The notes below the pieces were generated by a model. The model had not been told where the DNA came from and ran no database searches. It saw nothing but the letters and a program-made list of their open reading frames with translations. This document shows, one piece after another, positions 5,456 through 59,409 of a DNA stretch of 64,000 bases. Where the stretch lies: the NCBI GenBank assembly GCA_030731845.1, contig JANQTF010000186.1, forward strand, positions 27,713 to 91,712, read 5' to 3'. Position 1 is the first letter of the stretch, and each line of letters opens with the position of its first letter. Both the position numbers and the translations under genes were made by a program. The DNA comes from Bacteroidia bacterium (lineage in GTDB: Bacteria; Bacteroidota; Bacteroidia; J057).

Positions 5456-5462
5456 GATAAGT

Positions 5463-30052: not shown

Positions 30053-31513
30053 ATGCAACAATCAAAGTTAATAAGGCTACTTTCTTCATTGTCTGCCGCT
30101 GAAGCGAGGCGATTTGAGAGCTTCGTGCAGTCGCCCTACCACAACACACTTGATAAGGCGGTAGCTTTGGTTCAATATCTGCTTGCCTTTTATCCTGATT
30201 TTAGTAGCCCTGCATTGGAGGCAGAACTTATTTCAGAACGAATTTTTGGAAGCAGCGCCGAATCTCTTCAACCCTTACATGATTTGTCTTCACATCTCAC
30301 CCGCTTACTCGAGCAGTTTTGGGCCATTGAGCAGATAAAATCCAACCCCAAAGAGCTACAATACCAACTATCAGAGGCGCTGCTCAGCCCTGAGCGTATG
30401 TGGCATCACAACAAAATCTGGGAAAAGGGGCGAAAAACCGGCGAGCCAGAGGAGAAAGATGCAGGCTATTGGCTGCGTGAATACAAATACTGGGAGCAGG
30501 GAATGCGGCAAGCCCAACAGCTCAAGAAGCGACAAACCAAGGACTTTCTCGATAGTCGCTTAGAAATGACTATGGCATCGCTAGATCGTTTTTACCTCAT
30601 TCAGAAACTTGTTCTGTGCTGCGAAGCCATCAACCGCAGCAAGATCCTCAATACAGAGTTTGCACCGGAGCTACTTCAAGAAGTATCGCATTATCTCACA
30701 AGCAGCAAGAGCGAGCTCTCGCAAGTGCCTTTGATTCAGTTGTACTTTCAGGTACTTACTCTTCTTCAGGCGGCCAATGATGAAGAATATCGCAAGCTGT
30801 TGGATTTGCTTGTTATTCATCAGGATCACATTTCTCGGAACACAGGATTTGCTCTCTACACCTATGCCCAAAACCATTGTATTCGCCAAATCAACCAAGG
30901 CAGGTCGGCATTTTTAGATGAGCTATTTCTCCTGTATAAGACCTTGCTTCAGCGAGCTTACCTGCTGGAAGAAGACGGGAGCCTGGCTCACTGGCACTAC
31001 AAAAACATCACCACAGTAGCGCTCAGACTCAAGGAGTTTGATTGGGTCTCGATATTTTTGGAAGAATATCGAGACAAGCTCTCCGCAGAGCTTCGGGAAT
31101 CCGTGTACACCTATAACCTTGCCGCTTTGCACTATGAGCAAGGCGCATATAAATCAGCGCTGAAACTACTCCAACAAACGGATTTCACCGACGTGTACTA
31201 TGCGCTCAGCGCCAAATCCATGTTGCTCAAAATTTATTATGAGCTCGAAGATGAAGAGGCCCTTGGCTATGCTATTCAGGCATTTGATGTGTATCTGAGG
31301 CGAAATCAAGAAATTTCCAAGGACCATTTCCTGATCCATAAAAACTTGCTGCGTTTTACCAAAAAGATCCATCGCTTTCGCATTCGCTATGCGTCCTTAT
31401 CGGCGTCAGAGCAAAAGAGCAGGGCAGCGAAATTGGAGGCAGAACTAAACTCTGCCTCATCTGTGGCCAATTTATCCTGGCTTCAAGCCAAGTTGGCAGA
31501 CATAAGCAGTTAA
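30053..31513 (+). CDS. Large helical protein of unknown function
   Basis: The 486-aa product is almost entirely alpha-helical, with no signal peptide or membrane segment, so it is cytoplasmic. It begins QQSKLIRLLSSLSAAEARRFESFVQSPYHN, and the pattern of paired helices in the second half (YNLAALHYEQGAYKSALKLLQQTDF) resembles TPR repeats. Proteins with this start (LSxxExxRFxxFVxSPxxN) occur widely in Saprospiria-type genomes, but I know of no function. The ATG at 30053 was preferred over a TTG two codons upstream. Its end overlaps by 3 nt the convergent trehalose enzyme gene. Confidence 0.6.
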   Translation: MQQSKLIRLLSSLSAAEARRFESFVQSPYHNTLDKAVALVQYLLAFYPDFSSPALEAELISERIFGSSAESLQPLHDLSSHLTRLLEQFWAIEQIKSNPKELQYQLSEALLSPERMWHHNKIWEKGRKTGEPEEKDAGYWLREYKYWEQGMRQAQQLKKRQTKDFLDSRLEMTMASLDRFYLIQKLVLCCEAINRSKILNTEFAPELLQEVSHYLTSSKSELSQVPLIQLYFQVLTLLQAANDEEYRKLLDLLVIHQDHISRNTGFALYTYAQNHCIRQINQGRSAFLDELFLLYKTLLQRAYLLEEDGSLAHWHYKNITTVALRLKEFDWVSIFLEEYRDKLSAELRESVYTYNLAALHYEQGAYKSALKLLQQTDFTDVYYALSAKSMLLKIYYELEDEEALGYAIQAFDVYLRRNQEISKDHFLIHKNLLRFTKKIHRFRIRYASLSASEQKSRAAKLEAELNSASSVANLSWLQAKLADISS

Positions 31514-33687: not shown

Positions 33688-33844
33688 ATCGTTAAAGGTC
33701 GCATTCTCATGACTTGATTGCAAAAAATATCTTAATTCGTGGTTCTATCGCCAGAAAAGAATCAAGAGACCTGGGCGGATGAATGACGTTCCTATATAAA
33801 TGCTTAGTTTTAGCTCCGAAACTGTGACAGGGATACATTTACCT

Positions 33845-37917: not shown

Positions 37918-38171
37918 GGAAGAATGTGATTTGTATTGTTCTTTTTGTTTTGAAAATCGAATATATCCTATATTGATTATCCCAGTTAATTACATTTCAT
38001 AAAATACCATTAACGCAAAGGAATGTCTAGGTCGCTCACAATGAGTGACTAGTGGCTAGTTTTTTCGTCAATTCCGAGAGACAAATGGTCAAATTGCAAC
38101 ATCCAATTTCCCAAGATTACATCTCTCTATTTTTGAAAAACTACCAGTATCTGATTATGGGTCATTTTACA

Positions 38172-41067: not shown

Positions 41068-42540
41068 TTAGTATCCGCTATTCTGACCCAGCAGACCTCC
41101 ACTGAGGTCAATTTCTGCCTGGGGAATGGGGAAGAGATCATGTTTACCATCAATGAATGGCTTGCCAACTGCCCGCATGACTTCCCCTGCGCGCTGTTGG
41201 CGCTGGAGATCAAACCAGCGATGTTGCTCAAGCGCAAGCTCAGAGCGGCGCTCCCGCCAGATTCTGCTTCTCAATTCAGCCTGATCGGTGATCGTGATAT
41301 CAGGAAGAATAAAGGGGTTGTTTCTCCTCGCCCTTGCCCGAACCTGATTCAGGTACTGAAGTGCTTCGGTAGATTTGCCGTTTTCGTTGAGCACCTCAGC
41401 AGCCATGAGCAGCACGTCGGCATAGCGAAGGAGTCGAATGTTGCCCGGGCCATTGCCGTTTCCGCCTGTATGCTCAGGAACCCAGGCTTTCTGGTTGTAG
41501 CGCTCGTTGAGAATATCAGTATTGTCCTGCACCACTTCGCTGCCATCGGGGAGAACTTCCCCCACGTAGAGGATGGTAGCTTCTCGGCGTGGGTCGCCAG
41601 TCTCAAATGAAGTCACGAGGTCGTCAGAGGGTCGATTGAACCCCCAGCCCAGATTCGGGTCTCCTCTCACGCCTTGCACTTCATTGTACTGGCTTCCACC
41701 GCCACCTGTCTCCAAAGCCACCGTGAAAACTTCGAAGATAGATTCCGTGGAGTTTTCTCCCTCAGGCATAAAGATGGTGTTGAAATTCGGGAGTAGAGCA
41801 TAGTTGGCAGAAGCAATCACCTCCATCAGCAAGGGCTCGGCAAGGGCGTATTCACCTCTTGTGAGATACACCTTGGCCAGCAAAGCCTGTGCGGCCCCTT
41901 TGGTGGCCCGGCCTTGATCCTCAGCAAGTTGAGCTGATCGAAGTGGCAACACAGCTGCAGCTTCGCTAAGGTCAGCAATGATGAGGGCATATACCTCTGA
42001 GGCGGGCTTTCTTTCCTGTTTGTATTCATCAGGATTCAGGGGCCGATCAATAAGGGGAATGTCTCCAAACCAGCGCACAAGGTTGAAATAGAAATGTGCC
42101 CGCAGAAACTTAGCCTCTGCAATCAACCGGGCTTGAAGTGTTGGCTCAATTTCTTCCATCAGGGGCACTTCGCTCAACACGAGATTGGCTCGATAAATTC
42201 CCTGATAATAGCCTCCCCACACACCAAGAAAGGCTATGTTGCCTGGATCAAAGCTGAAATTGTCCACTTCCAGCAGGAAGTTGGCGTCGGTAACTGTGCT
42301 GCCCTTATCTGAGTCGTCCGACACGATATCGGTCAGGCCGATGTAGCTAAACACGTGCACATTCCAGTCGCGCAGATGGTTGTAAATGGCATTAACAGCC
42401 CAAACGGCTTGCTCTTCTGTTTGAAAGAAATTGTCTGAGGTGAGCTGACCCAGGGGTTTCTTTTCCAAAAACCCCTCACAACCAGATAGCAGAAGGATGA
42501 CCGCTACCATGAGACTTTTGTAGAGATGGAAATTTTTCAT
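41068..42540 (-). CDS. SusD/RagB-family glycan-binding lipoprotein
   Basis: The 490-aa outer-membrane lipoprotein has lipobox LLLSGCEGF (Cys about residue 21) and begins its mature part FLEKKPLGQLTSDNFFQTEEQAVWAVNAIYNHLRDW, the SusD signature. The C-terminus EIDLSGGLLGQNSGY also fits the family, where the closing Q..GY motif is conserved. SusD caps the SusC channel and binds oligosaccharide. The start at 42540 is preferred over one 18 codons upstream that overlaps susC. It lies 23 nt downstream of susC and is the last gene of the locus. The likely ligand is the product of the GH144 enzymes upstream. Confidence 0.95.
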   Translation of the reverse strand: MKNFHLYKSLMVAVILLLSGCEGFLEKKPLGQLTSDNFFQTEEQAVWAVNAIYNHLRDWNVHVFSYIGLTDIVSDDSDKGSTVTDANFLLEVDNFSFDPGNIAFLGVWGGYYQGIYRANLVLSEVPLMEEIEPTLQARLIAEAKFLRAHFYFNLVRWFGDIPLIDRPLNPDEYKQERKPASEVYALIIADLSEAAAVLPLRSAQLAEDQGRATKGAAQALLAKVYLTRGEYALAEPLLMEVIASANYALLPNFNTIFMPEGENSTESIFEVFTVALETGGGGSQYNEVQGVRGDPNLGWGFNRPSDDLVTSFETGDPRREATILYVGEVLPDGSEVVQDNTDILNERYNQKAWVPEHTGGNGNGPGNIRLLRYADVLLMAAEVLNENGKSTEALQYLNQVRARARRNNPFILPDITITDQAELRSRIWRERRSELALEQHRWFDLQRQQRAGEVMRAVGKPFIDGKHDLFPIPQAEIDLSGGLLGQNSGY

Positions 42541-42563
42541 GATAATTTTTTGTCTTGTCAACA

Positions 42564-45545
42564 TTAGAAACTTAGGTTGATGCCACCGGTCCATATTTTG
42601 GAAATGGGATAAACGCCACTGTCAATGCCCACAGCAATCACAGATCCACTCGTAATCTCTGGGGTATAACCAGAATACTGCTGCCAGGTGAATAAGTTTG
42701 TTCCACTCACATATAGTTGAACCTGGCTCATGTTGATCGCTGATAACCAGCTCCTTGGTAGATCATAGCTCAATAATACAGTGCGGATTCTGGTGAAAGC
42801 TGCGTTTTCCAGAAAACGCTCTGAAGGCTCGTAGTTGTGGCCACCGTTGGTGATGCGAGGCTCTGTGTTGGACGTTCCTTCACCATTCCACCGATCGAGA
42901 TAGGAAGCCTCAAAGTTGGGTGTTCCAAAGCGGGCCATCTTCTTGGAGTTGATGACGTAGTTTCCACGCTGTCCATAAAGAGACACCACCAACGAAAGTC
43001 CCTTGTAGCCCAGAGACAAGTCGCCGCTATAGATCAGCGTTGGTACGGGACTGCCGAGGTAGGTCCTGTCTGCGGTTGTGATCACCCCATCTTCGTTTAC
43101 ATCGACAAATTTCAGATCGCCGGGCTTCTCAATGCCCCGATTGGGAGAATTGTCAATCTCCTCCTGCGTCTGAAACACGCCCTCCACTTTGTAACCATAA
43201 AAAGCACCAATGGGCAAGCCGGGAACCGTACGTGTGCCCAGCAAGCCGCCTACGCCAAGACCTCCACCGAAGATCTCTTCGTTTCCTTCTCCGAGCTCCA
43301 GCACTTCGTTGTGCACGGTGGATGCCATAGCCTTAAAGGAATAATCAAAATCTCCGACCTCGTCGCGCCAGGCGAGACTCATATCAAAGCCCCGGTTTTG
43401 CACTTTAGCTGCATTGATCACGGGGTTGTTCGCAGCTCCCACATAAGCCGGAATAGGCACATTCACCAGAATGTCATTGGTCACTCGGTTGTAGTAATCA
43501 ACCTCAGCGGTAAAGCGATCGTTGAGCAAGCCTATTTCCAGGCCGATATCGGTTTGGCTTGTTTCTTCCCAGCGAATGTCAGGATTGGCGAGGGTAATAA
43601 TGGATGCCCCAGTGTTGAGAGACTCTGTAGGGCCAAACACGGCATTGAGGTTAGAGGTAACCACGGGCCTTCCGGCATAGGCACCAATTTTGTCGTTGCC
43701 TATTTGTCCCCAGCTTGCTCTTAGTTTCAGGCGGTTGATATCCTTCATCCCCTTCATGAAGGCTTCTTCGGCGATGTTCCAGCCAAATGCAAAGGAAGGG
43801 AAGTAACCGAATCGCTGATTGGCCCCAAATCTTGAGCTTCCGTCAGCGCGAAAGCTGGCAGTGAATAGATAGCGATCCATCAGCGAATAGTTCGCACGAG
43901 CCAAATAAGAGGCCATGGACCAGGAAAACGCACTATTATAGTTGGTCTGTCCTTCTATTTCTCCTGCATTCAAAAAGAAGAACTCCTCTGTCTCCGCAGG
44001 AAAGTTGATCCTGGAGCCTCCAAGATTCTCAAAATCAAAGGTTTGGGCGGTCACACCTCCCAAAACGGTGAGTCGTTGGTTGGTCCACTCTTTCTGGTAG
44101 GTGAGGGTATTTTCCCAAAGGATATTCTGCGAGCGGTCAATTCCTGCGTTAAGACGACTCTGTTGATTTTGCTGAATAGGAGAAACGAAAAATACCGGGG
44201 TAAAATCTTTGAAAAATCCTGCATCCACATCAATCCCAAGATTGGTGCGAAACCTGAAGTCCTTCAGAAAGGTGACGTCGGCAAACACATTGCCCACAGC
44301 CCGATAATTGAAAGACTGATTGTTGTTGTAGAAAATGGATGCCTCTGGGTTGCCAACAGGCGCCCTGAGTGTAGTATTGGAGAAATTCCCTAAGGTATCG
44401 AACGGGGCAATGGTGGGATCGCCTCGATAGGCATTGCTAAGGATGCCGGGCGTACCGATGTTTCGCGAATAAATCAGCGCCACATTGTGCCCTACATTCA
44501 CAGCTTTGTTGATCTGGTAGGTATTGTTGATCCGAAGGGTCATTCGGTCATAAGATCCGTTGCGGATAATTCCCTGCTGGCTAAAATAATCACCAGATAC
44601 GCGGTACGACATTTTGTCGCTAGCGCCCGAAGCGGCTACCTGATAATTCCGCATCGGAGCCTGCTGGAAAATCACGTCTTGCCAATCTGTGCCTTCTCCA
44701 TAAATACTGGGATCGGCAAACACTGGAGGACGACCCTCGTTTGCCGAAAGCTCGTTAGAGAGTTCAGCATATTCCCGCGCATTGGTCAGGTCAATCTTCC
44801 GCACCACTTCTTGAAAGCCCTCATAAGCATTGACTGTGACAGTGCTCTTACCTTGAACGCCGGCCTTGGTGGTGATGATGATCACACCGTTGGCGCCACG
44901 GGAGCCATAAATAGCCGTGGCGGAGGCATCCTTAAGCACTTCAAATGAGCCAATGTCGTTGGGGTTGAGAAAGCTGATGTCATCGAGTAGCATGCCATCC
45001 ACCACGAAGAGGGGAGAAGCATCGCCGAGGGTTCCTACCCCGCGGATGCGGATCACAGCTCCGGCACCCGGCGCACCGGAGGAGGGCGTCACTTGCACGC
45101 CAGCTGCTTTTCCTTGTAAAATCTGGGCAACCGATGCATTGGGAACACGGGCAAGTTCTTCAGCATTCACACTCGTAACCGATCCTGTCACATCGCTTTT
45201 TCGTTGCACGCCATAGCCCACCACGACATATTCGTTGAGGGTATATTCGTCTGGGGGCAGCGTCACATTCACTACGCTGCGACCCGCTACTTTCACGCTC
45301 ATGTCCTTAAAGCCAAAGAAACTTACCAGAAGGCTATCGTTTGGCGTGGGTAGGTTCAGGGTATAAGACCCGTTTTCGTCGGTAAAAATGCCGGTCGTGG
45401 TGCCGATTACCAGCACCGTGGCGCCTTCCAAAGCGGTGCCTTCTTCATCATAGACGGTTCCTGTTACCCGATGCTGGGCAATCAGGAAGGTGCTACTACC
45501 AACCAAAGTCAGCAACAGCAGGGTTTGTATCAGTTTTCGTTTCAT
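42564..45545 (-). CDS. SusC/RagA-family TonB-dependent oligosaccharide importer
   Basis: The 993-aa outer-membrane protein has a signal peptide (MKRKLIQTLLLLTLVGSSTFLIAQ), a CarboxypepD-like domain (HRVTGTVYDEEGTALEGATVLV, about 25-100), the SusC linker EYTLNEYVVVGYGVQRKSDVTGSV, a plug (RIRGVGTLGDASPLFVVDG and AIYGSRGANGVIIITTK) and a large barrel. It imports oligosaccharides with the SusD lipoprotein encoded 23 nt downstream. It follows the GH3 gene by 36 nt. This order, enzymes first and SusCD last, differs from the classical Sus locus. Confidence 0.97.
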   Translation of the reverse strand: MKRKLIQTLLLLTLVGSSTFLIAQHRVTGTVYDEEGTALEGATVLVIGTTTGIFTDENGSYTLNLPTPNDSLLVSFFGFKDMSVKVAGRSVVNVTLPPDEYTLNEYVVVGYGVQRKSDVTGSVTSVNAEELARVPNASVAQILQGKAAGVQVTPSSGAPGAGAVIRIRGVGTLGDASPLFVVDGMLLDDISFLNPNDIGSFEVLKDASATAIYGSRGANGVIIITTKAGVQGKSTVTVNAYEGFQEVVRKIDLTNAREYAELSNELSANEGRPPVFADPSIYGEGTDWQDVIFQQAPMRNYQVAASGASDKMSYRVSGDYFSQQGIIRNGSYDRMTLRINNTYQINKAVNVGHNVALIYSRNIGTPGILSNAYRGDPTIAPFDTLGNFSNTTLRAPVGNPEASIFYNNNQSFNYRAVGNVFADVTFLKDFRFRTNLGIDVDAGFFKDFTPVFFVSPIQQNQQSRLNAGIDRSQNILWENTLTYQKEWTNQRLTVLGGVTAQTFDFENLGGSRINFPAETEEFFFLNAGEIEGQTNYNSAFSWSMASYLARANYSLMDRYLFTASFRADGSSRFGANQRFGYFPSFAFGWNIAEEAFMKGMKDINRLKLRASWGQIGNDKIGAYAGRPVVTSNLNAVFGPTESLNTGASIITLANPDIRWEETSQTDIGLEIGLLNDRFTAEVDYYNRVTNDILVNVPIPAYVGAANNPVINAAKVQNRGFDMSLAWRDEVGDFDYSFKAMASTVHNEVLELGEGNEEIFGGGLGVGGLLGTRTVPGLPIGAFYGYKVEGVFQTQEEIDNSPNRGIEKPGDLKFVDVNEDGVITTADRTYLGSPVPTLIYSGDLSLGYKGLSLVVSLYGQRGNYVINSKKMARFGTPNFEASYLDRWNGEGTSNTEPRITNGGHNYEPSERFLENAAFTRIRTVLLSYDLPRSWLSAINMSQVQLYVSGTNLFTWQQYSGYTPEITSGSVIAVGIDSGVYPISKIWTGGINLSF

Positions 45546-45581
45546 CTCAAGGGTATTGGGTTGATGAATAAATTGGGGATG

Positions 45582-47789
45582 CTAATCTGTAAGTTTGATT
45601 GTAGCAGTTTGCACATCCCGTGAGTTTGGCCCTAGCTGGATTTCAAAATCTCCAGGCTCAGCCTTCCATGTCATGTCGCGTGTGTAAAAAGCAAGGTCAT
45701 TGACTCCGATCTCAAACTCTACCTGCTGGGTAGCACCCGGCGCTAGTGTCACTTGCTGAAATCCTTTCAGCTCTTTCAAAGGCCTTGTCACGCTTCCTAC
45801 GAGGTCGTGAACGTAGAGCTGCACCGTTTCGGTGGTAGCAACATCGCCAGTGTTGGTCACACGAATCGATATTTTCACCGTCTCAGATGCCGAAAATTCC
45901 GTTTTGCTCAGCACGGGTTTTCCGTAGGTAATCTCGGCGTAGGACAACCCAAATCCGAAGGGAAAAAGGGGCGTATTCTCCACGTCGAGATATTTGCTCG
46001 TATATTTGTTGTTGGCATCAAAGGGCCTGCCCGTATTTTTGGCATTGTAGAAAATCGGCACCTGACCAACGCTTCTGGGAAAGGTAATAGGGAGTCTGCC
46101 AGAAGGATTGGCTTCGCCCATAAGCACCTCCACGATGGCTGGCCCGCCCATGGTGCCGGGAAACCAGGCTTCCAGAATGGCATCGCAATGCGCTACCTCC
46201 CAGCTGAGGTCGAGTGGGCGACCATTCATCAATACCAGAACGAGGGGTTTTCCCGTTGCTTCAAGTGCCGAGATCAGTGCGCGCTGAGGGCCCGGCAGGG
46301 TAATGTCGGAGCGACTTGCTGCCTCTCCGCTCATGTATCCAGATTCTCCCACAAAAGCCACGATTATATCTGCCTGCTCGGCTGCCACCACTGCCTCAGA
46401 GATTCGAGACTCATCCTCCCCAGAAGTTTCACAACCTTTAGCGTAATACACATCCGCACCAATTGCTCTGAACGCCATTAGCGGTGTGATCACATCGTCG
46501 GCCCGACCATCGCCAAACCAGTTGCCAAGCATCTCTGCTTTGTTGTCGGCTAACGGGCCTACCACAGCAATACTTTTTGAGGCAGAAATAGGTAGGGCTC
46601 CTCGCTCATTTTTGAGCAGGACCAGAGATTTGATGCTTGATTCCAACGCTACATTGAGGTGAGCTTGAGAAAATACTTCTTCCGCTTCCCGTTCTTTGCT
46701 TCCATATCGATATGGGTCATCGAACAAACCGAGTTCATACTTCAATGCGAGAATGTATCGCACCGACTGGTCCACCGTTTCTACTGAAACCAATCCTTCC
46801 TTCACCTGCTTAGCAAGGTAATCGTAGTAAACGGCTCCTTGCATATCCATGTCAACCCCTGCATTCACGGCGAGTGTGGCAGCTTCGGCATTGTTAGCCA
46901 CGATGCCATGTGGCACCATCTCGTTGATAGAAGTATAATCGGTGACGACCATTCCTTGAAAGCCCCATTCTTTTCGGAGAATGTCCTGAAGGAGGTAGGA
47001 GTTGCCACTGCATGGCACAGCATCCACATCGTTGAAGGCGGTCATGAAGCTATACACTCCGGCATCCTTGGCAGCTTTGAAGGGTGGGAGATATATTTCT
47101 CTCAACGTTCTGTCAGAAATATCTACGGTATTGTAGTCTCGACCCGCCTGGGCTGCTCCGTAGGCTGCATAGTGTTTCACACAAGCAAGGATTGTGTTTT
47201 CATCCCCTATGTTTTGTCCTTGAAAGCCACGCACACGAGCTGCCGAGATGAGGGAGCCAAGATAGGTGTCTTCCCCTGCACCTTCGGCCACACGGCCCCA
47301 TCGAGGGTCGCGGGCTATGTCCACCATCGGGGCAAAGGTCCAGTTGAGACCCGCAGCGGAGGCTTCAACGGCGGCAATCCGCGCTGTTTGCTCGATCCCT
47401 TGGAGGTCCCAGGAGGCAGATTCTCCCAGCGGAATTGGGAAAATGGTGCGATAGCCATGAACGACATCGTAGCCAAAAAGGAGCGGAATCCCTAGGCGGG
47501 TTTCCTCCACGGCCATCTTTTGCAGTTGATGGTTGTATTCACTTGTGTGAGCATTGAAAATAGCTCCCACCTTGCCGGCGAGGATGTCATCTCTGTATCC
47601 AGGTCTCAGGGTAGGTCCTGTCACCACCCAATCACTCGTGAAGAGGGTCATCTGACCCACTTTCTCGTCCAGGGTCATCTGCCCGAGCAAGGAATCGGCC
47701 CTGGCCCAGGCCCGATCTGAGAGTTGCTGCGCTGAAAGGGAGGACAAGAGCAACAAGATAGAGAAGCTGAGTAGTAGTTTTTTTATCAT
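45582..47789 (-). CDS. Periplasmic GH3 beta-glucosidase (BglX-like)
   Basis: The 735-aa enzyme has a signal peptide (MIKKLLLSFSILLLLSSLSAQ). The GH3 TIM-barrel domain (about 35-365: TLDEKVGQMTLFTSDW, IPLLFGYDVVHGYRTIFP, WTFAPMVDIARDPRWGRVAEGAGED, VKHYAAYGAAQAGRDYN) has the nucleophile Asp in VVTDYTSINEM. The alpha/beta sandwich domain holds the GESGYMSGEAASRSDITLPG segment with the probable acid/base Glu. A C-terminal FN3-like domain closes it. GH3 enzymes release glucose from the non-reducing end of beta-glucan oligosaccharides. It starts 7 nt after the GH144 lipoprotein gene and lies 36 nt before susC. Confidence 0.92.
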   Translation of the reverse strand: MIKKLLLSFSILLLLSSLSAQQLSDRAWARADSLLGQMTLDEKVGQMTLFTSDWVVTGPTLRPGYRDDILAGKVGAIFNAHTSEYNHQLQKMAVEETRLGIPLLFGYDVVHGYRTIFPIPLGESASWDLQGIEQTARIAAVEASAAGLNWTFAPMVDIARDPRWGRVAEGAGEDTYLGSLISAARVRGFQGQNIGDENTILACVKHYAAYGAAQAGRDYNTVDISDRTLREIYLPPFKAAKDAGVYSFMTAFNDVDAVPCSGNSYLLQDILRKEWGFQGMVVTDYTSINEMVPHGIVANNAEAATLAVNAGVDMDMQGAVYYDYLAKQVKEGLVSVETVDQSVRYILALKYELGLFDDPYRYGSKEREAEEVFSQAHLNVALESSIKSLVLLKNERGALPISASKSIAVVGPLADNKAEMLGNWFGDGRADDVITPLMAFRAIGADVYYAKGCETSGEDESRISEAVVAAEQADIIVAFVGESGYMSGEAASRSDITLPGPQRALISALEATGKPLVLVLMNGRPLDLSWEVAHCDAILEAWFPGTMGGPAIVEVLMGEANPSGRLPITFPRSVGQVPIFYNAKNTGRPFDANNKYTSKYLDVENTPLFPFGFGLSYAEITYGKPVLSKTEFSASETVKISIRVTNTGDVATTETVQLYVHDLVGSVTRPLKELKGFQQVTLAPGATQQVEFEIGVNDLAFYTRDMTWKAEPGDFEIQLGPNSRDVQTATIKLTD

Positions 47790-47796
47790 CAGTCGG

Positions 47797-49161
47797 TTAA
47801 TTACGTTCTTGTAGCCACCCACCAGTAAAGCCTGCTTTACGCAGTCCATTTACCAAATAAGGGTTCTTTTTCATCAGGTTCCAGATCAATTCTGAGTCAT
47901 GGTTTTCTGCCATAATGAGGATCGGGCCCTGATCGATTCCCAGATATTCAAAATCGAACCATTGACCCGGAAAGGAGAGGTTAAAGGCATCCTTGAATCC
48001 AAATTCGCCCACCAATTGATCGTGGTGAGTATTCCACATATAAGCCAGTGTTTGGATACAGGTGTCGGGCAAGAATGGAATGGAACCACCCACAGCTGTG
48101 GGTGTCAGCGTGCCATCATCGCGAATTTCCTGTGCGGAAACACCTCTTGCCATGTAGCCTGTGAAGTTCACTTCACGTCCGCCGATCATGGCCTTAGTGC
48201 CATGGCCGGGTCCGTCGCAAGCGCTCAATCCCCACTGTAGGTGGGAATAGCCCGTGAATCCAGCCGGATTGCGAATGGCATAATCCTGATTGGCCAGCGT
48301 GGCAAGACGAGAGTTCTGGAAATAATCGGAGCCCTTTTCTCGCATATACGCGTCCTGTATTCCCCGAAAATCAACAAACATGTGACTGTATTGATGGCCA
48401 AATAAGGGGGCGAAATTCAGGTGTGGCTCATAGAAATCTTCCCATTCATAGGTCTTGCACCACATAGCCCAGGAACTATCTGCAATGGGGTGGGTAGGAG
48501 ACCCTAAGGCCATGAGCAGCAGCACCATGGCTTCGTTGTAGCCTTTCCACCTGGCTGGGATAAAGCCCTTTTCAGGGTGCCAACCCATGCTCATGTAGCC
48601 ATCTTCCTGCATAGCCCAATCCCATTCTACCCGAAGGTAGAGACTGTCGGCCAAGGCACGGATCGCCTGCTCTTGTTCATTATCCTGATCAAAATAACTT
48701 TGAACAGATAAAACGCCAGCCATTAGCAGGCCTGTATCGATGGTAGAAAGTTCTACCTCTTTGAATCTTTGGGCATGATCCATGGTGAGGAAATGGTAGA
48801 AAAATCCACGGTATCCACTCACTCCGCTTGGTTCAGGGCCCTGTCTCATGTTCCAAAGAGCATGAAGAGTAGCCTCTACTCGGGTAGCGGCTTCCTTTCG
48901 GGTGATGTATCCATTTTCTACCCCTACAAGGTAGCTACTCAGTCCAAAGCCTGTGGCAGCTACGCTGGAAAATGGTCGTGTGGGGTATCTGTCCGGTATT
49001 TGAAAATATTGACTATCGGCTGTTTGCCAAAAAAACTGAAAGGTCCTTTCTTTCAATTTTGGTAATGAAAAGTCGTCTGAAGCATCGGCATTTTGGGATT
49101 CTGCGCATCCGATAAGGATCGGTAACAGAAGCCCAAAAAGGAAGTAGAAGATCGGTCGCAT
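47797..49161 (-). CDS. GH144-type (PF10091) glucanase lipoprotein
   Basis: The 454-aa protein has lipobox LIGCAES (Cys about 19) and a single glucoamylase-like (PF10091) alpha/alpha-barrel. Typical segments are LKERTFQFFWQTADSQ, SSVAATGFGLSSYLVGVENGYITRKEA, ELSTIDTGLLMAGVLSVQSYF, GWHPEKGFIPARWKGYNEAMVLLLMALGS and YLGIDQGPILIMAENH. PF10091 includes CAZy family GH144, known for beta-1,2-glucanases and sophorose-releasing exo-enzymes. Where its secreted paralogue has GGDLVETAF, this protein reads STIDTGLLM, so a Glu there is absent. The lipoprotein signal suggests outer-membrane anchoring. It lies downstream of the five-module binding protein and 7 nt upstream of GH3. Confidence 0.8.
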   Translation of the reverse strand: MRPIFYFLFGLLLPILIGCAESQNADASDDFSLPKLKERTFQFFWQTADSQYFQIPDRYPTRPFSSVAATGFGLSSYLVGVENGYITRKEAATRVEATLHALWNMRQGPEPSGVSGYRGFFYHFLTMDHAQRFKEVELSTIDTGLLMAGVLSVQSYFDQDNEQEQAIRALADSLYLRVEWDWAMQEDGYMSMGWHPEKGFIPARWKGYNEAMVLLLMALGSPTHPIADSSWAMWCKTYEWEDFYEPHLNFAPLFGHQYSHMFVDFRGIQDAYMREKGSDYFQNSRLATLANQDYAIRNPAGFTGYSHLQWGLSACDGPGHGTKAMIGGREVNFTGYMARGVSAQEIRDDGTLTPTAVGGSIPFLPDTCIQTLAYMWNTHHDQLVGEFGFKDAFNLSFPGQWFDFEYLGIDQGPILIMAENHDSELIWNLMKKNPYLVNGLRKAGFTGGWLQERN

Positions 49162-49183
49162 GACTTGTGATTGTAAAAGAGTA

Positions 49184-49209
49184 GGGGAGGAGCCACTATG
49201 CTCCTCCCC
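49184..49209 (-). terminator. Intercistronic hairpin in the glucan locus
   Basis: GGGGAGGAG (49184-49192) pairs with CTCCTCCCC (49201-49209) around an 8-nt loop. It lies 10 nt after the stop codon of the five-module protein gene on the minus strand. With no good T-run downstream, it may stabilise the upstream message or attenuate rather than fully terminate. Confidence 0.5.
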
Positions 49210-49218
49210 AAGATGAGA

Positions 49219-51909: not shown

Positions 51910-51938
51910 GATTTTGAATTGTTTTGGTTTGGTAACGA

Positions 51939-54344
51939 TTAACGAGTGAATACGACAGGCTGACTGTGTAGCGTCTGCCCATCTTGAAGGATACGTAGGT
52001 AGTAGATGCCAGCAGGCAGGGGGGGAAGGTTCACCTTCGATTCTCCTACCTGATTTTGCTGGGTGGTTTCCTCAAAAATCATTCTTCCTTCTCCAGTAAA
52101 AAGGCAAACCTGAAGCTCGCGGAATGAAGCCGATGACTGAATGGTCAAAGCCCCTTCACTTACTGGATTCGGACTCACAGCCCACCTGGTTTTCTCTATG
52201 TCAGAGGCGATCCCTGTAATGGCGGTGCTATCAGCCGCAAAGCCAATGGCATCCAAGGCAGGTTGAATCTCGGGATTCGACATGAATAGCTCCCAGAACA
52301 GGCCGCTGCGATAATTTTCAATCATCACAATGATCGGCCCCTGATCAATGGCCAGATAGGAGTCAGCCACCCAATTTTCAGACACATTAAAGGCGTCATA
52401 GAATCCCATGGGACCCCAGAGTTCTTCTCCGTGTTCGCGGTAAAAATGCTTGAGCGCAGCAATGGATTCTTTGGGCGTATAAGGCATGGAGCTAATGGCC
52501 GCCGTGGGGGCAATGGTACCATTGTCTCGGCTGAGAGAAGGCTCGTGGGCCAGATATCCGACCAGTGGGTCGTCGCTAGCGGTGAGCCCCCAGCAATCTT
52601 CGCCATAGCCAGCATGGTTTTTGGGATTGGCGATGCACCACGCCCGGTTGATCAGAGTTTGGTGGGCATTTCTCACGAAATAGTTGGTGTAAGCGTCCCG
52701 AATGCCTCTTGGATCAAAGCCCAGATAAGAATAGTGAGAAAAGAACAACGGACCTCCGTTGCCCGGTCCCACGTCGAGCTTGTAGCCATAATAGGTTTGG
52801 CCATTGGTATAATTACTTCCTGCCCAGCCGTTGGGATAGAGGCTGGCGGGCACAGCATGGGTATTGGAGGCAATCCCGAGCAAATACACGATGTGGGCTT
52901 CGTTGAAGCCGCGAAGCGCAAAGTTCATCGCCCAGGCAAAGTTTGGAGACCAATGCCAATACATTACCTGCTGCGTGAGTCGGCGATACCAGTTCCATTC
53001 CACGCCGTTCCACAGCGTGGTGATCCTGTCGCGGAGTAGGGTTTCGTTTGGCGTGGCCTGATCAAAATATTGCCTCACAGACAGTAACCCCTGAACCATA
53101 AATGCGGTCTCGACCAGGTCGCCACCATCATCCTGTGCGCTGAATGGGATGACATTTCCTGTGTTCCCATTGAGCCAATGTGACCAGGCACCATGAAACC
53201 GATCTGCATTTTGAAGGAATTCTGTGATCTTGAGGAGCCTGGCCAATCCTTCTTCGCGGGTGATGTAGCCGCGCTCAATCCCAGCTACGATGGCCATTAC
53301 GCCAAATCCACTTCCGCCAATTGTTACCGTGTTGCCAGAGCTATTGCGCTCTCTTGCCAGACCCGAAACCGGATGGGCAAAATCCCAGAAGTAGCGAAAG
53401 GTGGCCTCCTGCACCATGTCCAGAAATTCATCATCTGTCATGATATTCCCCGACACGCTAACTGATGCAGATGGAGCAGATTCATCTCCGCCAAAGCCTA
53501 CTGACCGCAGGTGATAGAGCCTGGAAATACCGCTTCCGGGATCTCCCCAGAAGTCCATCGTCATGCTGTCGTTTTGTGAAATATACTTGGCAAACTGAAA
53601 GCTCTGCCCATTGTCCTCCGAAAAATACAAGTGATACCCATCCAGATTGTTGGCGCTGATGAGATTCCAGTGAAATTCGCCGTGGCGTTCATATCCCTTG
53701 CCAGAAAAACCAGTTGGAATCACGGGTGATCCGCTAGAAGCGGGAACGGTCTTTACTTCATCAACCAGGAGGGTGTGATCTGTCTGGTCAGCACTGTCCT
53801 GACTGAAGATGATGGCTTTTATTTGAGTGAATTGAATGTTGGTTTGAGCAGGATCATTGGTGAATACCGTCAAAGGAATGCTGATCCGGTGCCATTGAGC
53901 GGCGGGAATGTCGTCAGTGAGGGTTTTGAGCGAATACTTCAGGGTCTTGGTGGCGCCGGGCGCGCCCTCCATAGAGATTTTGGGCAGGCGTGACTTGCTC
54001 AAGCCTGTGGCAGAATACACCCAAAAAGAAAGAGAATCACTTTGGGTAATGTCTAGAAATGGAAAGCCAGGCGCAATGACAAGCGCATCCCAATTGCCGC
54101 CGGGTTTGGAGTTCCAGGTAAATGAAAGGGCATTTTTGCCACGGTAGGAGTTTGCTGTCACCGGTATTTTATCTCCCGAGGGACCAGTCCGAGTAAAGGT
54201 GCTGCTCCCTGAGAGAAAGGCAAGACCAGTATCGTAGTATTCGCTATCTGGGCTATCAGCAAAAAAAGTCACCACCTGTGCAGGCAGATCAGAAGGGACA
54301 AATAACAAACCAATCAAAATGAAGATGGTAGATCGAAGTAGCAT
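51939..54344 (-). CDS. T9SS-secreted GH144-type (PF10091) glucanase
   Basis: The 801-aa protein has a signal peptide (MLLRSTIFILIGLLFVPSDLPAQ); ATG 54344 was preferred over a much longer leader. Residues about 25-205 form a CBM11/30-like sandwich (NWDALVIAPGFPFLDI, HTLLVDEVKTVPASSG), followed by an FN3 domain. The glucoamylase-like catalytic domain (about 305-700) has TFRYFWDFAHPVSGLARER, GGSGFGVMAIVAGIERGYI, DDGGDLVETAFMVQGLLSVRQYF, GFNEAHIVYLLGIAS and YLAIDQGPIIVMIENY. A T9SS domain ends the protein. The D-x2-E in GGDLVE matches what I recall as essential acids of the characterised GH144 endo-beta-1,2-glucanase. This is probably the surface depolymerase of the locus. Confidence 0.82.
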   Translation of the reverse strand: MLLRSTIFILIGLLFVPSDLPAQVVTFFADSPDSEYYDTGLAFLSGSSTFTRTGPSGDKIPVTANSYRGKNALSFTWNSKPGGNWDALVIAPGFPFLDITQSDSLSFWVYSATGLSKSRLPKISMEGAPGATKTLKYSLKTLTDDIPAAQWHRISIPLTVFTNDPAQTNIQFTQIKAIIFSQDSADQTDHTLLVDEVKTVPASSGSPVIPTGFSGKGYERHGEFHWNLISANNLDGYHLYFSEDNGQSFQFAKYISQNDSMTMDFWGDPGSGISRLYHLRSVGFGGDESAPSASVSVSGNIMTDDEFLDMVQEATFRYFWDFAHPVSGLARERNSSGNTVTIGGSGFGVMAIVAGIERGYITREEGLARLLKITEFLQNADRFHGAWSHWLNGNTGNVIPFSAQDDGGDLVETAFMVQGLLSVRQYFDQATPNETLLRDRITTLWNGVEWNWYRRLTQQVMYWHWSPNFAWAMNFALRGFNEAHIVYLLGIASNTHAVPASLYPNGWAGSNYTNGQTYYGYKLDVGPGNGGPLFFSHYSYLGFDPRGIRDAYTNYFVRNAHQTLINRAWCIANPKNHAGYGEDCWGLTASDDPLVGYLAHEPSLSRDNGTIAPTAAISSMPYTPKESIAALKHFYREHGEELWGPMGFYDAFNVSENWVADSYLAIDQGPIIVMIENYRSGLFWELFMSNPEIQPALDAIGFAADSTAITGIASDIEKTRWAVSPNPVSEGALTIQSSASFRELQVCLFTGEGRMIFEETTQQNQVGESKVNLPPLPAGIYYLRILQDGQTLHSQPVVFTR

Positions 54345-54572
54345 GTGTAGTAGTTTCTCTGTGTAACATCGTTTCAAGTAAGAAAGTACGGCGCTGATAT
54401 GCACTATTTTCCACCTCATCATTACCTCATCAATGCCATATTTTAAAACGAATAACTCAGCGTTTGGGTAGCCCAAATGATATTAATCACCTGAAAATCA
54501 GCAAAGTGATTTCTAATTCTCTCATAAGCAGGAAAATAGCCATGTTCATGACAACCATGAAGAGCTTCGCTA

Positions 54573-57350
54573 TTAATATTTCAACAAGAGGTCGATAAGT
54601 TGCTCATGCGCGTGCAAATCCAGCTTCAGGCGAAGCCGATATCGCTTGTTTTCTACACTTCTCAGGGAGATGTGGAGCAAAGGGGCAATCTCTTTGGAGC
54701 TGAGATTCATGCGCAGATATGCCGCAAGCCGGAGATCGCCGGAGGTGAGGCTGGGGAAATCATGCTTGAGTCGCTGAAAAAAGCTCTGGTGCACACGGGT
54801 GAAGTGATATTCAAATGCTTCCCAGTCTTTTTCACTGGACAATTGCGAATTGAGCTGTAGCAGCATTTGTCTCAACTTCTGTTTATGATCGGCTTCTTTG
54901 CTCTTTTGAAGGGATTTGAGGTCCTGCCTTAATTCCAGTAAAATTTCATTCTTCCGCACCAAATTCATCGTGATTCCTGCCAATTCTTGATTTTGCTCTT
55001 CAATACTTTGTTCGAGCTGAAGGTTCTTGATCTCGATCTCCCGGGCATGACGGGCTCTGTCTTGCTCAATTTGCTTCTTTCGCCACCTTCGCTCCAGTTG
55101 GCTCTGATACCATCGTGTAGCGACTATGAGCAGACTTCCACCGATAACGAAGAAGAGGAAGATGGCCCAGTCCTGCGCAAACCATGGTTCTTCTTTGATT
55201 ACTTGCAGGCTGAGCGTTGTGCCATCTTCCTTTCGCTCAATCTCAATCCCATACGCACCAGACGGTATGATGGGCAAGCGGATGCTAGCCTCCCCGGACC
55301 AGTCTGACCAATTGGATTGAATCCCAGGGATGCGAAACCGGTAATGAAGGTCTTGTGGATGAAAGCCAGAGGCAATTGATATGATCAGTCCCTGATCATC
55401 CACCACCAATCGCACTTCGCCGCCAGGGAAGGGTAGGGGAGCCAGGCGTGTGTCTTCTTTCCCTATGATTTCGATTCCTGAGAAAAACATGGGGTTCCAT
55501 GACAGGGAATCTGACGTGTTTGCGTTCAGAACGAGAAAGCCCTGCGACAAGCCAATGAGCCAATTTCCGTCTTCAAATCTGTAAATCCCGGGATCTGTCG
55601 GCATATCTGATACAGCAAAGGAATGGGCCATACCCTGCCCAAAAAAATCAACGGATTGATGCTCAATCCCCACATACTCGTTTTCGAAGCGCTCTATCCT
55701 ACGCAGCTTCGCCGTCAGAGGAATGCCATTCCATTGATCGACCTTCTCGAATTTGTCGCCATCCTCATTCAACTGAAACCAGCCGGAGTCAGATTTGACC
55801 AGGATGTTGCTGTCGGCTTGCACCATGACCAACCTGTTCAGATCCTGAAGGCCCCAGTCAGGCTCGGAGGAATGCAAAGACAAAAGGGTTAACTCATCTG
55901 GTGCCATCGAGGCTTTCATCAGGCCCCGATACGGGTGTACTCCCCAGATATTTCCCTGTCGATCCTTGCAGAGATCGCGAATCGGACTGTTGATTCCACT
56001 GATCTTGCTTACCCTGATCTGCTCATCGACCACAGAGAACTGAACCAGTCCTGTGTAGGTGCCCTGGATCCAGGTCTCATCATGATTTCCAGCAATCCAG
56101 GACCAGCCACCTGTGATGTCACTGATTTTTCGAATCCTATCGCCTATCACCTGAAAAGTCCCCGCATTGTGACCGCATAGCAATTGGCCAGCTATGTTTT
56201 TTAGACTCCATACCTGCCCTTGCGTGCCAGGCACAAACTCAAAAGCTGCGCTTTCGGGCCCATCGGGCCATGATCGTGAAAATAACCCGTGATTGGTTCC
56301 GATATACAGCCTTCCTTGGTCCTCAATCGCACAATACACGATTCCCAATTCGCCACTTTGGTCTTCAAATTTTCTGACAGGAGAGGGAAAATCAAGATAA
56401 GCTATGCCTTGATCGAGCCCTGCCCACACACCTCCGCGCTTGTCGGAGCTCAATGACAACACCGTATTGTCTGCGAGTCCGGTGTGTCGGTAAATGTGCT
56501 CCAGAACGCTTCCCTGCTTATCTATCAGATAAATGCCACCTGAAATGGTGCCAATGCAAATGCCCTCTGGCACAAGTTCCATCTTGTTTACTTGATCTCT
56601 GCTCAACAAAGGCAGAATCTCCTGAAAAACGGGCTGAAGAACGCCGTTTGAATACATCCAGAGCCCGTTTCTGTCAGTCGCAATGAGCAGGCTGTTTGGG
56701 CTGTATTCAACAATTCCCACTACGGTGGCTTCTGCAAGTGCTTCGGTCCCAGCAAGGATCCGAAACCCCATGCGGGGATCAAACTCCGCCAGTCCCTGCG
56801 AGAGCACTTGCAGAAAAAACTTATCCAAACATCGGTAGGTGAACATGATCCCCGATGAAAATGGGGATTGAAAAATGCTGATCGAATCCTGTTGGGAGAG
56901 GTAAATGGTGGAAAAAGACTGGAACAACACGCCATCTTCCCAAGACTCAATGTGCCATATTTCTTCATTTTTCACCAAAGGGAAGGACAAATCCTGACTC
57001 AGTGAATGGAACTCATAGCTTCCTGTTGAGGATGGCTGCCAGTAGCCAAACTCTCCATAACCGCCTCCATAGACTCGGTCTCCAACTGCCTTTACAGCCC
57101 TCACGCGATGATTTCCCGGCAAGGGAAAGATGCGCCAGTGCTCCCCGTCAAAGGTCAACATTCCATCAGAATTGCCAACTACCACGCCGCGCGAGGTCAC
57201 GTCGATCGACCAATTTTGCGGGGCTGCCAGGTAGGTTTGCTCAGCAATGTTGAGAATAGATGGGCTGAGCTGCGCCTGTGCACCCAGATACATCAGGCAC
57301 AGGAGTGACAGAGGAAATAACTTAGGGAATAGCAAAGGCGACATAGGCAT
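54573..57350 (-). CDS. SusR-like transmembrane regulator: beta-propeller sensor with LuxR-type HTH
   Basis: The protein is about 925 aa. After a signal/anchor (MPMSPLLFPKLFPLSLLCLMYLGAQAQ), about 600 residues form two-component-regulator propeller repeats (SRGVVVGNSDGMLTFDGEHWRIFPLPG, KRGGVWAGLDQGIAYLD). A Y_Y_Y-like domain (HYRFRIPGIQSNWSDWSG) follows, then one membrane helix (IFLFFVIGGSLLIVATRWY), a coiled coil, and a C-terminal LuxR-type HTH (LTSGDLRLAAYLRMNLSSKEIAPLLHISLRSVENKRYRLRLKL). There is no kinase or receiver domain. The periplasmic propeller probably senses oligosaccharide and the inner part binds DNA directly, like SusR. Start 57350 (or 57344) overlaps the dehydrogenase gene by about 29 nt, indicating cotranscription. 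The 228-nt gap after it may hold the target promoter. Confidence 0.85.
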   Translation of the reverse strand: MPMSPLLFPKLFPLSLLCLMYLGAQAQLSPSILNIAEQTYLAAPQNWSIDVTSRGVVVGNSDGMLTFDGEHWRIFPLPGNHRVRAVKAVGDRVYGGGYGEFGYWQPSSTGSYEFHSLSQDLSFPLVKNEEIWHIESWEDGVLFQSFSTIYLSQQDSISIFQSPFSSGIMFTYRCLDKFFLQVLSQGLAEFDPRMGFRILAGTEALAEATVVGIVEYSPNSLLIATDRNGLWMYSNGVLQPVFQEILPLLSRDQVNKMELVPEGICIGTISGGIYLIDKQGSVLEHIYRHTGLADNTVLSLSSDKRGGVWAGLDQGIAYLDFPSPVRKFEDQSGELGIVYCAIEDQGRLYIGTNHGLFSRSWPDGPESAAFEFVPGTQGQVWSLKNIAGQLLCGHNAGTFQVIGDRIRKISDITGGWSWIAGNHDETWIQGTYTGLVQFSVVDEQIRVSKISGINSPIRDLCKDRQGNIWGVHPYRGLMKASMAPDELTLLSLHSSEPDWGLQDLNRLVMVQADSNILVKSDSGWFQLNEDGDKFEKVDQWNGIPLTAKLRRIERFENEYVGIEHQSVDFFGQGMAHSFAVSDMPTDPGIYRFEDGNWLIGLSQGFLVLNANTSDSLSWNPMFFSGIEIIGKEDTRLAPLPFPGGEVRLVVDDQGLIISIASGFHPQDLHYRFRIPGIQSNWSDWSGEASIRLPIIPSGAYGIEIERKEDGTTLSLQVIKEEPWFAQDWAIFLFFVIGGSLLIVATRWYQSQLERRWRKKQIEQDRARHAREIEIKNLQLEQSIEEQNQELAGITMNLVRKNEILLELRQDLKSLQKSKEADHKQKLRQMLLQLNSQLSSEKDWEAFEYHFTRVHQSFFQRLKHDFPSLTSGDLRLAAYLRMNLSSKEIAPLLHISLRSVENKRYRLRLKLDLHAHEQLIDLLLKY

Positions 57351-59409
57351 CTCCGGATTTCGTCCCCATTTTACCTCCTCCGCAGGCAACAATCAAATAT
57401 TGCTTGCCATTTGCCTCATACATGGCCGGGGTGGCATATCCACCTGCTGGCAAATTGGCCTCCCATAATAGATCTCCTGTGGCCGTAGAAAAGGCCCTGA
57501 TTTTCTCATCTTTGGTGGCAGCAATAAACGTCAGGCCTGAAGCAGTTACCAGTGGGCCGCCGTAGTTTTCGGTGCCGGTAACCGGGATTCCTTTGGCCAC
57601 CAATTCAGGATATTCTCCCAACGGAATCTGCCATTTGATTTCGCCAGCATTCAAATCAATCGCGGTCAGAAGACCCCATGGAGGAGAAATGGCAGGATAC
57701 CCGGCTTTGTCGAGAAAGCGCTTGTATCCTGATGAAACATAGGCCGATGTCGGATCACCCTTCCCTGGCTGATCCTCAGAAGGGAGGCCAAGGAGAAAAC
57801 GAGACACCTCGGCTTTGTCGGATTCACTGAGATAGGCAAAAGAAGGCATACTGCCTTTGCCAGATTCTAGTAGTGCCTGCAAACCGGGCAGCTCATAGCG
57901 GCTCTCCAGCCCAAGCAAGGATGGAATAGTTCCCATAAATTCGCCTCCGCTGCGATCAGCGCCATGACAACTCGCACAATTGGTTAAATATACCTGATTA
58001 CCGGGATGATTGGCCGCAGTCGATACCATGTTCAAGGTCCACGCCATCTGTGAACTATTAACCACCATCAGCCCCTTCCATGGGTCATAAGCAGCGCCTC
58101 CCCATTCCCCGCCGCCATCATAGCCCGGAAAAACAAGGGTTCCCTCCATGCTTGGTGGCTCAAAAATGCTGTGCTGACGCAGGCGAGCCAATACTTTTGC
58201 CAATGAGTCCTTGCCTTCGGCTCGTTCGTGAATGCCTTCCACACGCTGCCGCGAGAAGGGTGGGGGAGAGCTCGGCAGTGGTTGAGTGGGCCAGGATGCC
58301 TCACCTGGCATGGTGGACGCTGCCACGGGTATTTCATTGATCGGATAAATTGGTTCTCCCGTTTCCCGGTGGAAAATAAATACATGGCCTGTTTTTGTGA
58401 TCTGTGCTACCGCAGGAATGTCTTTTTCACCCCGCTGGATCGTGATGAGATTGGGGGGAGCTGGCAAATCTCGGTCGAGTAAATCATGGTGCACAAACTG
58501 GAAGTGCCATTTTAATTGACCAGTGGCAGCATCAAGGGCAAGCAGGCAATTGGCATATAAGTTTGCGCCGGGCCTGTCGGCCCCGTAGAAATCATAGGAT
58601 GCCGACCCCGTAGGCACAAATACCAGTCCTCTGTCATGATCTACCGTCATGCCTGCCCAGGCATTGGCGCCGCCACTGGTTTTCCAGGCTTGCTCAGGCC
58701 AGGTGTCGTAGCCAGGTTCGCCCGGTTCGGGAATGGTGTGGAAAATCCAGGTCATATCGCCGCTTTGAATGTCATAAGCGCGAATATGCCCCGGAGCAGC
58801 CCCCGCACCCTCAGAGACCCTGCAACCAATAATCAGCTGATTGCCATAAACAGCGCCGGGTGAATTGGCTACCACAAAAGCATTTTCAGCCCCCTCACGG
58901 AGGCCAATTCTCAGATCAATCTTGCCCTCTTTCCCAAAATCGGAGATGCTTTTTCCTGTCTCTGCGAACATTGCAAATAGATATGGGCCATTGGAAACAA
59001 AAATTCTATCACCGTTAGGAGATCGGGCATACACAAGCCCACGATTCACGCCCATGCCAGGAGAAGGCACATCGTCGGGATTCATGCTGGCGGATGGGGA
59101 GCTGCGCCATATTTCTACGCCGGTGACTCCATCAAGGCAGACAACATCGAGCGTGGCCGTAGTGGCGAATATTTTCCCATTGATAATCAATGGATTACAC
59201 TGGATTTGGGTGTGTTTTCCTGCATCGCCAGCCTTGTAAACCCACGCTGGTACGAGTTTCGAAATGTTCTCAGTTGTGATTTGCGATAGGGTAGTGGCAT
59301 GGTTGCTTCCTGGCCCCAAGGCTACCGGCCATGATTTGTCGGCATAGAGCGGTGTTTCAGAAGGTGTGCTACAGGATAATATGCACAGCAGAGGCAGAAG
59401 TATTCTCAT
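57322..59409 (-). CDS. PQQ-dependent dehydrogenase with embedded cytochrome c
   Basis: The 695-aa protein has a lipoprotein signal (LLCILSCSTP). It has quinoprotein eight-blade propeller features such as SWPVALGPGSNHATTLSQIT, TLDVVCLDGVTGVEIWRSSP, GLVFVPTGSASYDFYG and NLITIQRGEKDIPAVAQITKTGHVFIF. A cytochrome c segment with CASCH (about residue 480) and axial Met candidates (GTIPSLLGL / MPSFAYLS) is inserted between late blades. The closing blade has GTENYGGPLVTASGLTFI and YGANG-like MYEANGKQYLIVACGG. The pattern fits soluble or lipid-anchored sugar dehydrogenases (glucose-type). Glucose freed by the GH3/GH144 enzymes would be a plausible substrate. It is first in the minus-strand locus and overlaps the regulator. 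Confidence 0.85.
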   Translation of the reverse strand: MRILLPLLCILSCSTPSETPLYADKSWPVALGPGSNHATTLSQITTENISKLVPAWVYKAGDAGKHTQIQCNPLIINGKIFATTATLDVVCLDGVTGVEIWRSSPSASMNPDDVPSPGMGVNRGLVYARSPNGDRIFVSNGPYLFAMFAETGKSISDFGKEGKIDLRIGLREGAENAFVVANSPGAVYGNQLIIGCRVSEGAGAAPGHIRAYDIQSGDMTWIFHTIPEPGEPGYDTWPEQAWKTSGGANAWAGMTVDHDRGLVFVPTGSASYDFYGADRPGANLYANCLLALDAATGQLKWHFQFVHHDLLDRDLPAPPNLITIQRGEKDIPAVAQITKTGHVFIFHRETGEPIYPINEIPVAASTMPGEASWPTQPLPSSPPPFSRQRVEGIHERAEGKDSLAKVLARLRQHSIFEPPSMEGTLVFPGYDGGGEWGGAAYDPWKGLMVVNSSQMAWTLNMVSTAANHPGNQVYLTNCASCHGADRSGGEFMGTIPSLLGLESRYELPGLQALLESGKGSMPSFAYLSESDKAEVSRFLLGLPSEDQPGKGDPTSAYVSSGYKRFLDKAGYPAISPPWGLLTAIDLNAGEIKWQIPLGEYPELVAKGIPVTGTENYGGPLVTASGLTFIAATKDEKIRAFSTATGDLLWEANLPAGGYATPAMYEANGKQYLIVACGGGKMGTKSGDAYVAFAIP

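Follow-up and report, generated by a model that had tools for sequence, protein, structure and literature searches.

A block of eight minus-strand genes at positions 59409-41068 of a 64,000-nucleotide stretch from a Bacteroidia bacterium (contig JANQTF010000186.1, positions 27,713 to 91,712; hereafter the window) is very probably a polysaccharide utilisation locus (PUL) whose products would capture beta-1,2-glucan, a rare polysaccharide made by other bacteria, cleave it and take it up. Support at the level of sequence comes from family membership, catalytic residues, secretion signals and conserved synteny. Two clades of glycoside hydrolase family 144 (GH144) are represented in the locus with all key residues, and in each of these clades a beta-1,2-glucan enzyme has been characterised biochemically. 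The genes encode, in order, a quinoprotein dehydrogenase, a regulator, a first GH144 enzyme (GH144a), a putative binding protein, a second GH144 enzyme (GH144b), a GH3 enzyme, SusC and SusD. SusC and SusD are adjacent and are accompanied by glycosidases and a regulator, as in a SusCD-type PUL.

An earlier sequence-only reading of the window had described these eight genes; its coordinates were correct, and its domain calls were borne out by Pfam and NCBIfam. The genes are tightly packed, with intergenic gaps of -71 to 96 nt by the listed starts; the negative gaps shrink or vanish once starts are set by signal peptides. By our reading of the signal peptides, the listed open reading frames of P0006, P0003, P0001 and P0007 begin too early, and their likely starts are 54344, 47789, 42540 and 57350 or 57344, respectively.

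Two GH144 enzymes from separate clades

GH144a (P0006; 51939-54476, minus strand) and GH144b (P0004; 47797-49161, minus strand) matched PF10091 at 258 and 255 bits, respectively (Pfam cut-off 27 bits). A single structural clan takes in several of the families active on beta-1,2-glucan (PMC12102758), so a PF10091 match alone is insufficient for assignment to GH144. In searches of the Protein Data Bank (PDB), P0004 matched XcSGL (8XUL) first (E 7e-128) and CpSGL-type entries next, and P0006 matched BDI_3064, 4GL3 and CpSGL-type entries (E 1e-142 to 1e-163). All PDB matches of both enzymes were GH144-type (5GZH/5GZK, 5Z06, 4GL3, 4QT9, 3EU8 and 8XUL), and the structures that PMC12102758 gives for GH162, GH189, GH192 and GH194 (6IMU, 8WY1, 8XUJ, 8XUK) were returned by neither search. 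An unrooted tree of 134 rows, built by one quick method, placed P0006 with CpSGL, BDI_3064, 4GL3 and 4QT9 and placed P0004 with XcSGL, with a support of 100 on the separating branch.

Active-site residues were mapped by alignment, using as references the sequences in the PDB-search alignments. Both proteins conserve the Glu that serves as general acid in GH144 (CpSGL E211), as well as the Phe and Tyr that define the clan (F268 and Y330). At the positions of CpSGL E211, E142, F268, Y330 and D400, P0004 carries E210, D142, F254, Y336 and D410, and P0006 carries E526, E456, F578, Y641 and D711. The proposed general-base position (E142) is acidic in both, and XcSGL also has Asp there. The Gln that appears at the acid position of XcSGL in the alignment reflects the E-to-Q mutation carried by the 8XUL structure. 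As far as sequence can say, both PF10091 proteins belong to GH144 as experimentally defined; the earlier reading had named grouping outside GH144 as a result that would speak against a beta-1,2-glucan locus, and both the PDB matches and the tree placed them inside the family.

P0004 is 49% identical to XcSGL and has all catalytic positions in common with it. It differs in being a lipoprotein (lipobox LIGC, ending at Cys19) within a SusCD locus, and in having no counterpart of the XcSGL C-terminal extension, which is described as disordered. P0006 consists of an N-terminal beta-sandwich, an Fn3-like domain, the GH144 barrel and a type IX secretion system (T9SS) tail (Por_Secre_tail). CpSGL (5GZH/5GZK), the founding GH144 endo-beta-1,2-glucanase, belongs to the same clade and shares all catalytic positions, but is without the N-terminal domains and T9SS tail of P0006. 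An AlphaFold2 model of P0006, made from a 10-sequence alignment, had a predicted local distance difference test score (pLDDT) of 61 and was not used.

BDI_3064 (5Z06), which releases sophorose from non-reducing ends, shares with P0006 the arrangement of N-terminal domains followed by GH144, and its alignment in the PDB search spans P0006 residues 105-744. Unlike BDI_3064, P0006 has a T9SS tail, and it does not have the insertion that precedes the conserved YTNG segment in BDI_3064. Lewinella orthologues of GH144a do not have any N-terminal sandwich. In the tree BDI_3064 paired with a Gemmatimonadota protein, not with P0006, and at the CpSGL D400 position P0006 keeps Asp whereas BDI_3064 has Asn, so that P0006 has neither the tree grouping nor the active-site substitution of the exo-acting, sophorose-releasing subgroup. 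We lean towards endo action for GH144a, which on these features appears at least as likely as exo action.

Gene order is conserved in relatives

The GH144b alignment was used to scan genomes, one for each species; the best 80 matches gave 80 loci, and L113 was added to give 81. Counts from this survey are biased to close relatives because the best 80 matches were kept, and contigs often end within the locus. The flanks contained GH144a in 45 loci, SusC/D in 48 and GH3 in 36; GH144a, GH144b and SusC/D were found together in 37 of the 81. GH144a, the binding protein and GH144b were contiguous in that order in 23 of 81 loci, mostly in Saprospiria-type genomes, and in 12 of these the regulator also stood in front. 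The genome of the window is probably Saprospiria-type as well, judging by its nearest named relatives in the scan and the tree. The order GH144b, (GH3), SusC was seen in 36 of 81. Other genera of the window's own family carried recurrent blocks on contigs, namely regulator-GH144a-binding protein and binding protein-GH144b-(GH3)-SusC-SusD. The position of SusC and SusD at the end of the locus had been called unusual in the sequence-only reading; for this lineage that was wrong, since the recurrent blocks make the order that looked odd the rule.

Variation was also seen. GH144a was shifted to the locus end in L033, L038 and L043, and other Bacteroidota had the layout regulator-GH144b-SusC-SusD-concanavalin/Ig-type protein-GH144a-GH3. 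A gene for a 7TMR-DISM signalling protein was located between GH144b and SusC in one locus (L046:11417-13333), and L068 and L069 have genes of similar size there.

The Bacteroides thetaiotaomicron SGL gene cluster contains the GH3 enzyme BT_3567, which acts on beta-1,2-gluco-oligosaccharides and beta-1,2-glucan (PMC8861115, PMC11842490). The window locus is similar in being a GH144-type gene cluster with a GH3 beta-glucosidase. It differs, in a comparison that was not made gene by gene, in that it pairs two GH144 clades, has one of the two enzymes secreted by the T9SS, and carries a T9SS-secreted tandem-module protein between them. None of the papers listed in a literature search joined GH144 with Saprospiria. 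A beta-1,2-glucan SusCD locus is ordinary in kind; of this secreted, conserved variant with a long array of binding modules we found no description.

A secreted protein with tandem modules

The gene between the two GH144 genes (P0005; 49219-51909, minus strand) encodes a T9SS-secreted putative binding protein with five tandem CBM4/9-like beta-sandwich modules (CBM, carbohydrate-binding module; PF02018). The modules start at residues 25, 183, 333, 497 and 648, are followed by the T9SS tail, and have pairwise identities of 21-53%. AlphaFold2 predicted beta-sandwich strands throughout, with a mean pLDDT of 83.7. When orthologues were examined with a profile built from the modules, they had five, six or seven, the additions being N-terminal. 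Two Bacteroidales GH144 loci (L063 and L072) carry a two-module relative of P0005, with a T9SS tail in L063.

The solved structure nearest to the P0005 modules was 8QX6, labelled in the structure library as 'Novel laminarin-binding CBM X584'; a literature search for 8QX6 found no mention of it. Module 5 matched it by phmmer (E 2e-9), and a single-module fold match gave a target template modelling (TM) score of 0.70 with 29% identity. A fold search with the whole of P0005 was dominated by multi-domain beta-sandwich proteins at TM-scores below 0.2 and was not taken as informative. 8QX6 is a single crystallised domain, whereas P0005 and its orthologues are arrays of five to seven related modules. 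A second PUL in this genome also contains related modules, together with a CBM48-like domain. Since 8QX6 binds laminarin and these relatives occur with a CBM48-like domain, the module family is not restricted to one ligand. P0005-type modules co-occur with GH144 loci in the survey, and from this genomic context P0005 is predicted to bind beta-1,2-glucan.

A hairpin follows the binding-protein gene

A hairpin (49184-49209, minus strand; 10-bp stem with 8 G-C pairs) sits in the 57-nt gap 3' of the binding-protein gene, ahead of the GH144b gene. Segments of 90 nt downstream of the binding-protein gene had a median folding z of -3.8 over 33 junctions (30 shuffles each; the relatives are not independent, and two of the junctions are non-orthologous Bacteroidales ones), compared with medians of -0.25 to 0.03 at junctions after the regulator, GH144a, GH144b, GH3 and SusC genes. 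Perfect stems 10 bp or longer were present at 17 of the 33 junctions, against 14 of 213 after the other five genes and 11 of 46 after SusD, the usual operon end. The position of the hairpin was kept in most relatives while the stem sequence differed freely between loci, and T-runs followed the stem in several of them.

In the window, the GH144b start lies about 22 nt beyond the stem. That distance leaves too little room for a complete promoter, and read-through with attenuation or stabilisation is therefore likelier than a separate transcription unit. Generic sigma-70 scans gave scores near background and were set aside as promoter evidence. Rfam had no match in the window at gathering thresholds; its sub-threshold matches at the hairpin were at chance level and on the opposite strand. 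In Escherichia coli, the malE-malF intercistronic stem-loop likewise directly follows the gene for a binding protein in an operon for sugar uptake; it is alike in place and unrelated in sequence to the hairpin described here.

The second PUL of the genome (L155, on contig C247) encodes a regulator, a T9SS binding protein (the one that carries the related modules and the CBM48-like domain), SusC and SusD. A very strong stem lies between its binding-protein gene and SusC (5416-5545).

We tentatively suggest that the five to seven modules form a dedicated surface array with a new beta-1,2-glucan CBM specificity, made in excess over the importer by way of the position-conserved hairpin, and that this is a general design in the lineage, with L155 as one more case. 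This extended proposal is possible but somewhat doubtful.

Regulator, GH3 enzyme and importer

P0007 (54573-57392, minus strand) is a membrane-spanning sensor-regulator built of a periplasmic Reg_prop propeller (PF07494), one transmembrane helix, a coiled coil and a C-terminal LuxR-type helix-turn-helix, the last with a GerE score of 21.3 bits, below the Pfam cut-off of 23.5. It holds the orthologous position in relatives. The earlier description of a SusR-like sensor holds for its role as a sensor-regulator; given the propeller and the sub-cut-off LuxR-type helix-turn-helix, the likeness to SusR is a functional analogy only.

P0003 (45582-47849, minus strand) has a signal peptide and the N- and C-terminal GH3 domains, and scored 830 bits against NF011678 BglX (cut-off 666). 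Its nearest solved structures were JMB19063, then 9URF, then BT_3567 (5XXL), and its VTDYT motif aligns with the same motif in BT_3567. P0003 is a predicted BglX-type GH3 beta-glucosidase; homology to BT_3567 does not fix its predicted specificity for sophoro-oligosaccharides. The importer genes encode a SusC TonB-dependent transporter (P0002; 42564-45545, minus strand; TIGR04056 at 855.6 bits, cut-off 368) and a SusD-like lipoprotein (P0001; 41068-42594, minus strand; PF07980 at 120 bits, PF14322 at 97 bits), whose lipobox runs to Cys39.

Alternative explanations

P0008 (57322-59409, minus strand) is a pyrroloquinoline quinone (PQQ)-type dehydrogenase lipoprotein with a cytochrome c domain (PF01011 at 576 bits, PF13442; heme motif CASCH at residue 478). 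The earlier reading counted it as a member of the system. As such it might oxidise glucose freed in the periplasm. Its gene and that of the regulator share 71 nt by the listed starts, or about 20-30 nt if the regulator begins at its likelier start, and a PQQ-type gene lies within a few kilobases of GH144b in two Gemmatimonadota loci and one Larkinella locus (L102, L111 and L080), which may reflect a loose association of such genes with GH144b loci. However, the quinoprotein gene was upstream of the regulator in no relative whose flank permits judging, and no P0008 homologue in the window's family was beside the locus within the flanks examined. P0008 also scored 432 bits against the NCBIfam glucose dehydrogenase subfamily, far under the cut-off of 833. 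Despite the overlap, the quinoprotein gene is a neighbour outside the conserved unit, and its participation in glucan use is unlikely.

Several observations weigh against beta-1,2-glucan as the substrate. The sequence of the GH3 enzyme does not reveal its specificity, and BT_3567 is a more distant match of P0003 than JMB19063 is. The nearest solved relative of the binding modules is a CBM that binds laminarin. In two Lewinella loci, sulfatase genes with the CSPSR motif and 65% mutual identity occupy the GH3 slot between GH144b and SusC (L034:11274-12920 and L077:11206-12909), and the natural substrate may be sulfated or decorated in some Lewinella hosts. In Bacteroides xylanisolvens a GH144 gene (Bxy_22790) adjoins a gene for a GH35 beta-1,2-galactosidase inactive on beta-1,2-gluco-oligosaccharides (PMC11739564). 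Together with the sulfatases, this last case raises the possibility that the target is another beta-1,2-linked glycan, such as a sulfated or mixed polymer or a beta-1,2-galactan, whose related backbone GH144 would attack. We consider this improbable. In the window locus the additional glycosidase is a GH3 enzyme that belongs to the BglX type of beta-glucosidase, the catalytic and subsite residues match those of the glucan enzymes, and GH3 was the sole recurrent extra glycosidase in the surveyed loci. GH16, GH17, GH35, GH2 and GH43 were absent from the 25 commonest families among the surveyed neighbouring genes, and a single batch scan of 61 other neighbouring genes contained one GH97.

Laminarin or another beta-1,3-glucan, to which the match of module 5 to 8QX6 points, is a highly improbable substrate. 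Neither GH16, GH17 nor any other laminarinase family is present in the window locus, and none was among the recurrent families of relatives; the presence of related modules beside a CBM48-type domain in the second PUL argues that the module family does not fix the ligand. XcSGL, an enzyme assigned to GH144, hydrolyses beta-1,2-glucan and is reported as N.D. on CM-cellulose, barley beta-glucan and other glucans (PMC12102758). Based on the GH144 clades, key residues, the GH3 gene and synteny, beta-1,2-glucan, the substrate originally proposed for the locus, is very probably the correct one.

Further features of the genome and of relatives bear on how such a glucan would be obtained and used. Cyclic-glucan synthases carry PF10091, and by this criterion the genome encodes none: no third PF10091 gene and no OpgG/MdoG were found in it at 94% completeness; the host would therefore not make beta-1,2-glucan by known routes, which fits scavenging. 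A sodium:solute symporter gene between GH144b and GH3 in one relative (L057:10127-11803) fits a monosaccharide end product.

Neighbouring genes

Two other features of the window were recorded. On the plus strand at 35671-40886, a TonB-dependent receptor gene is followed by a gene for a T9SS-secreted protein with a beta-helix and two CBM6-like domains, possibly a second glycan-related pair adjoining the locus. A fused trehalose-6-phosphate synthase/phosphatase is encoded at 31510-33723 on the minus strand.

Proposed function and significance

We propose that the regulator would sense released oligosaccharides in the periplasm and switch the operon on. GH144a, exported by the T9SS, would cleave linear or cyclic beta-1,2-glucan outside the cell, and the tandem-module protein, exported by the same route, would keep the polymer at the cell surface. 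The lipoprotein GH144b would shorten the glucan further, SusC and SusD would import the oligosaccharides, and the periplasmic GH3 enzyme would release glucose. The hairpin, by terminating part of the transcription or by stabilising the 3' end of the transcript, would probably lead to more surface protein than importer.

In many bacteria, beta-1,2-glucans (cyclic glucans and osmoregulated periplasmic glucans) serve as factors in symbiosis and virulence, and to our knowledge little is known of their fate in the environment. If the proposed function is correct, it would name consumers of beta-1,2-glucan among Saprospiria-type Bacteroidota, with related layouts in other Bacteroidota, and would provide tools for detecting the polymer, in the form of matched enzymes and a candidate binding module.

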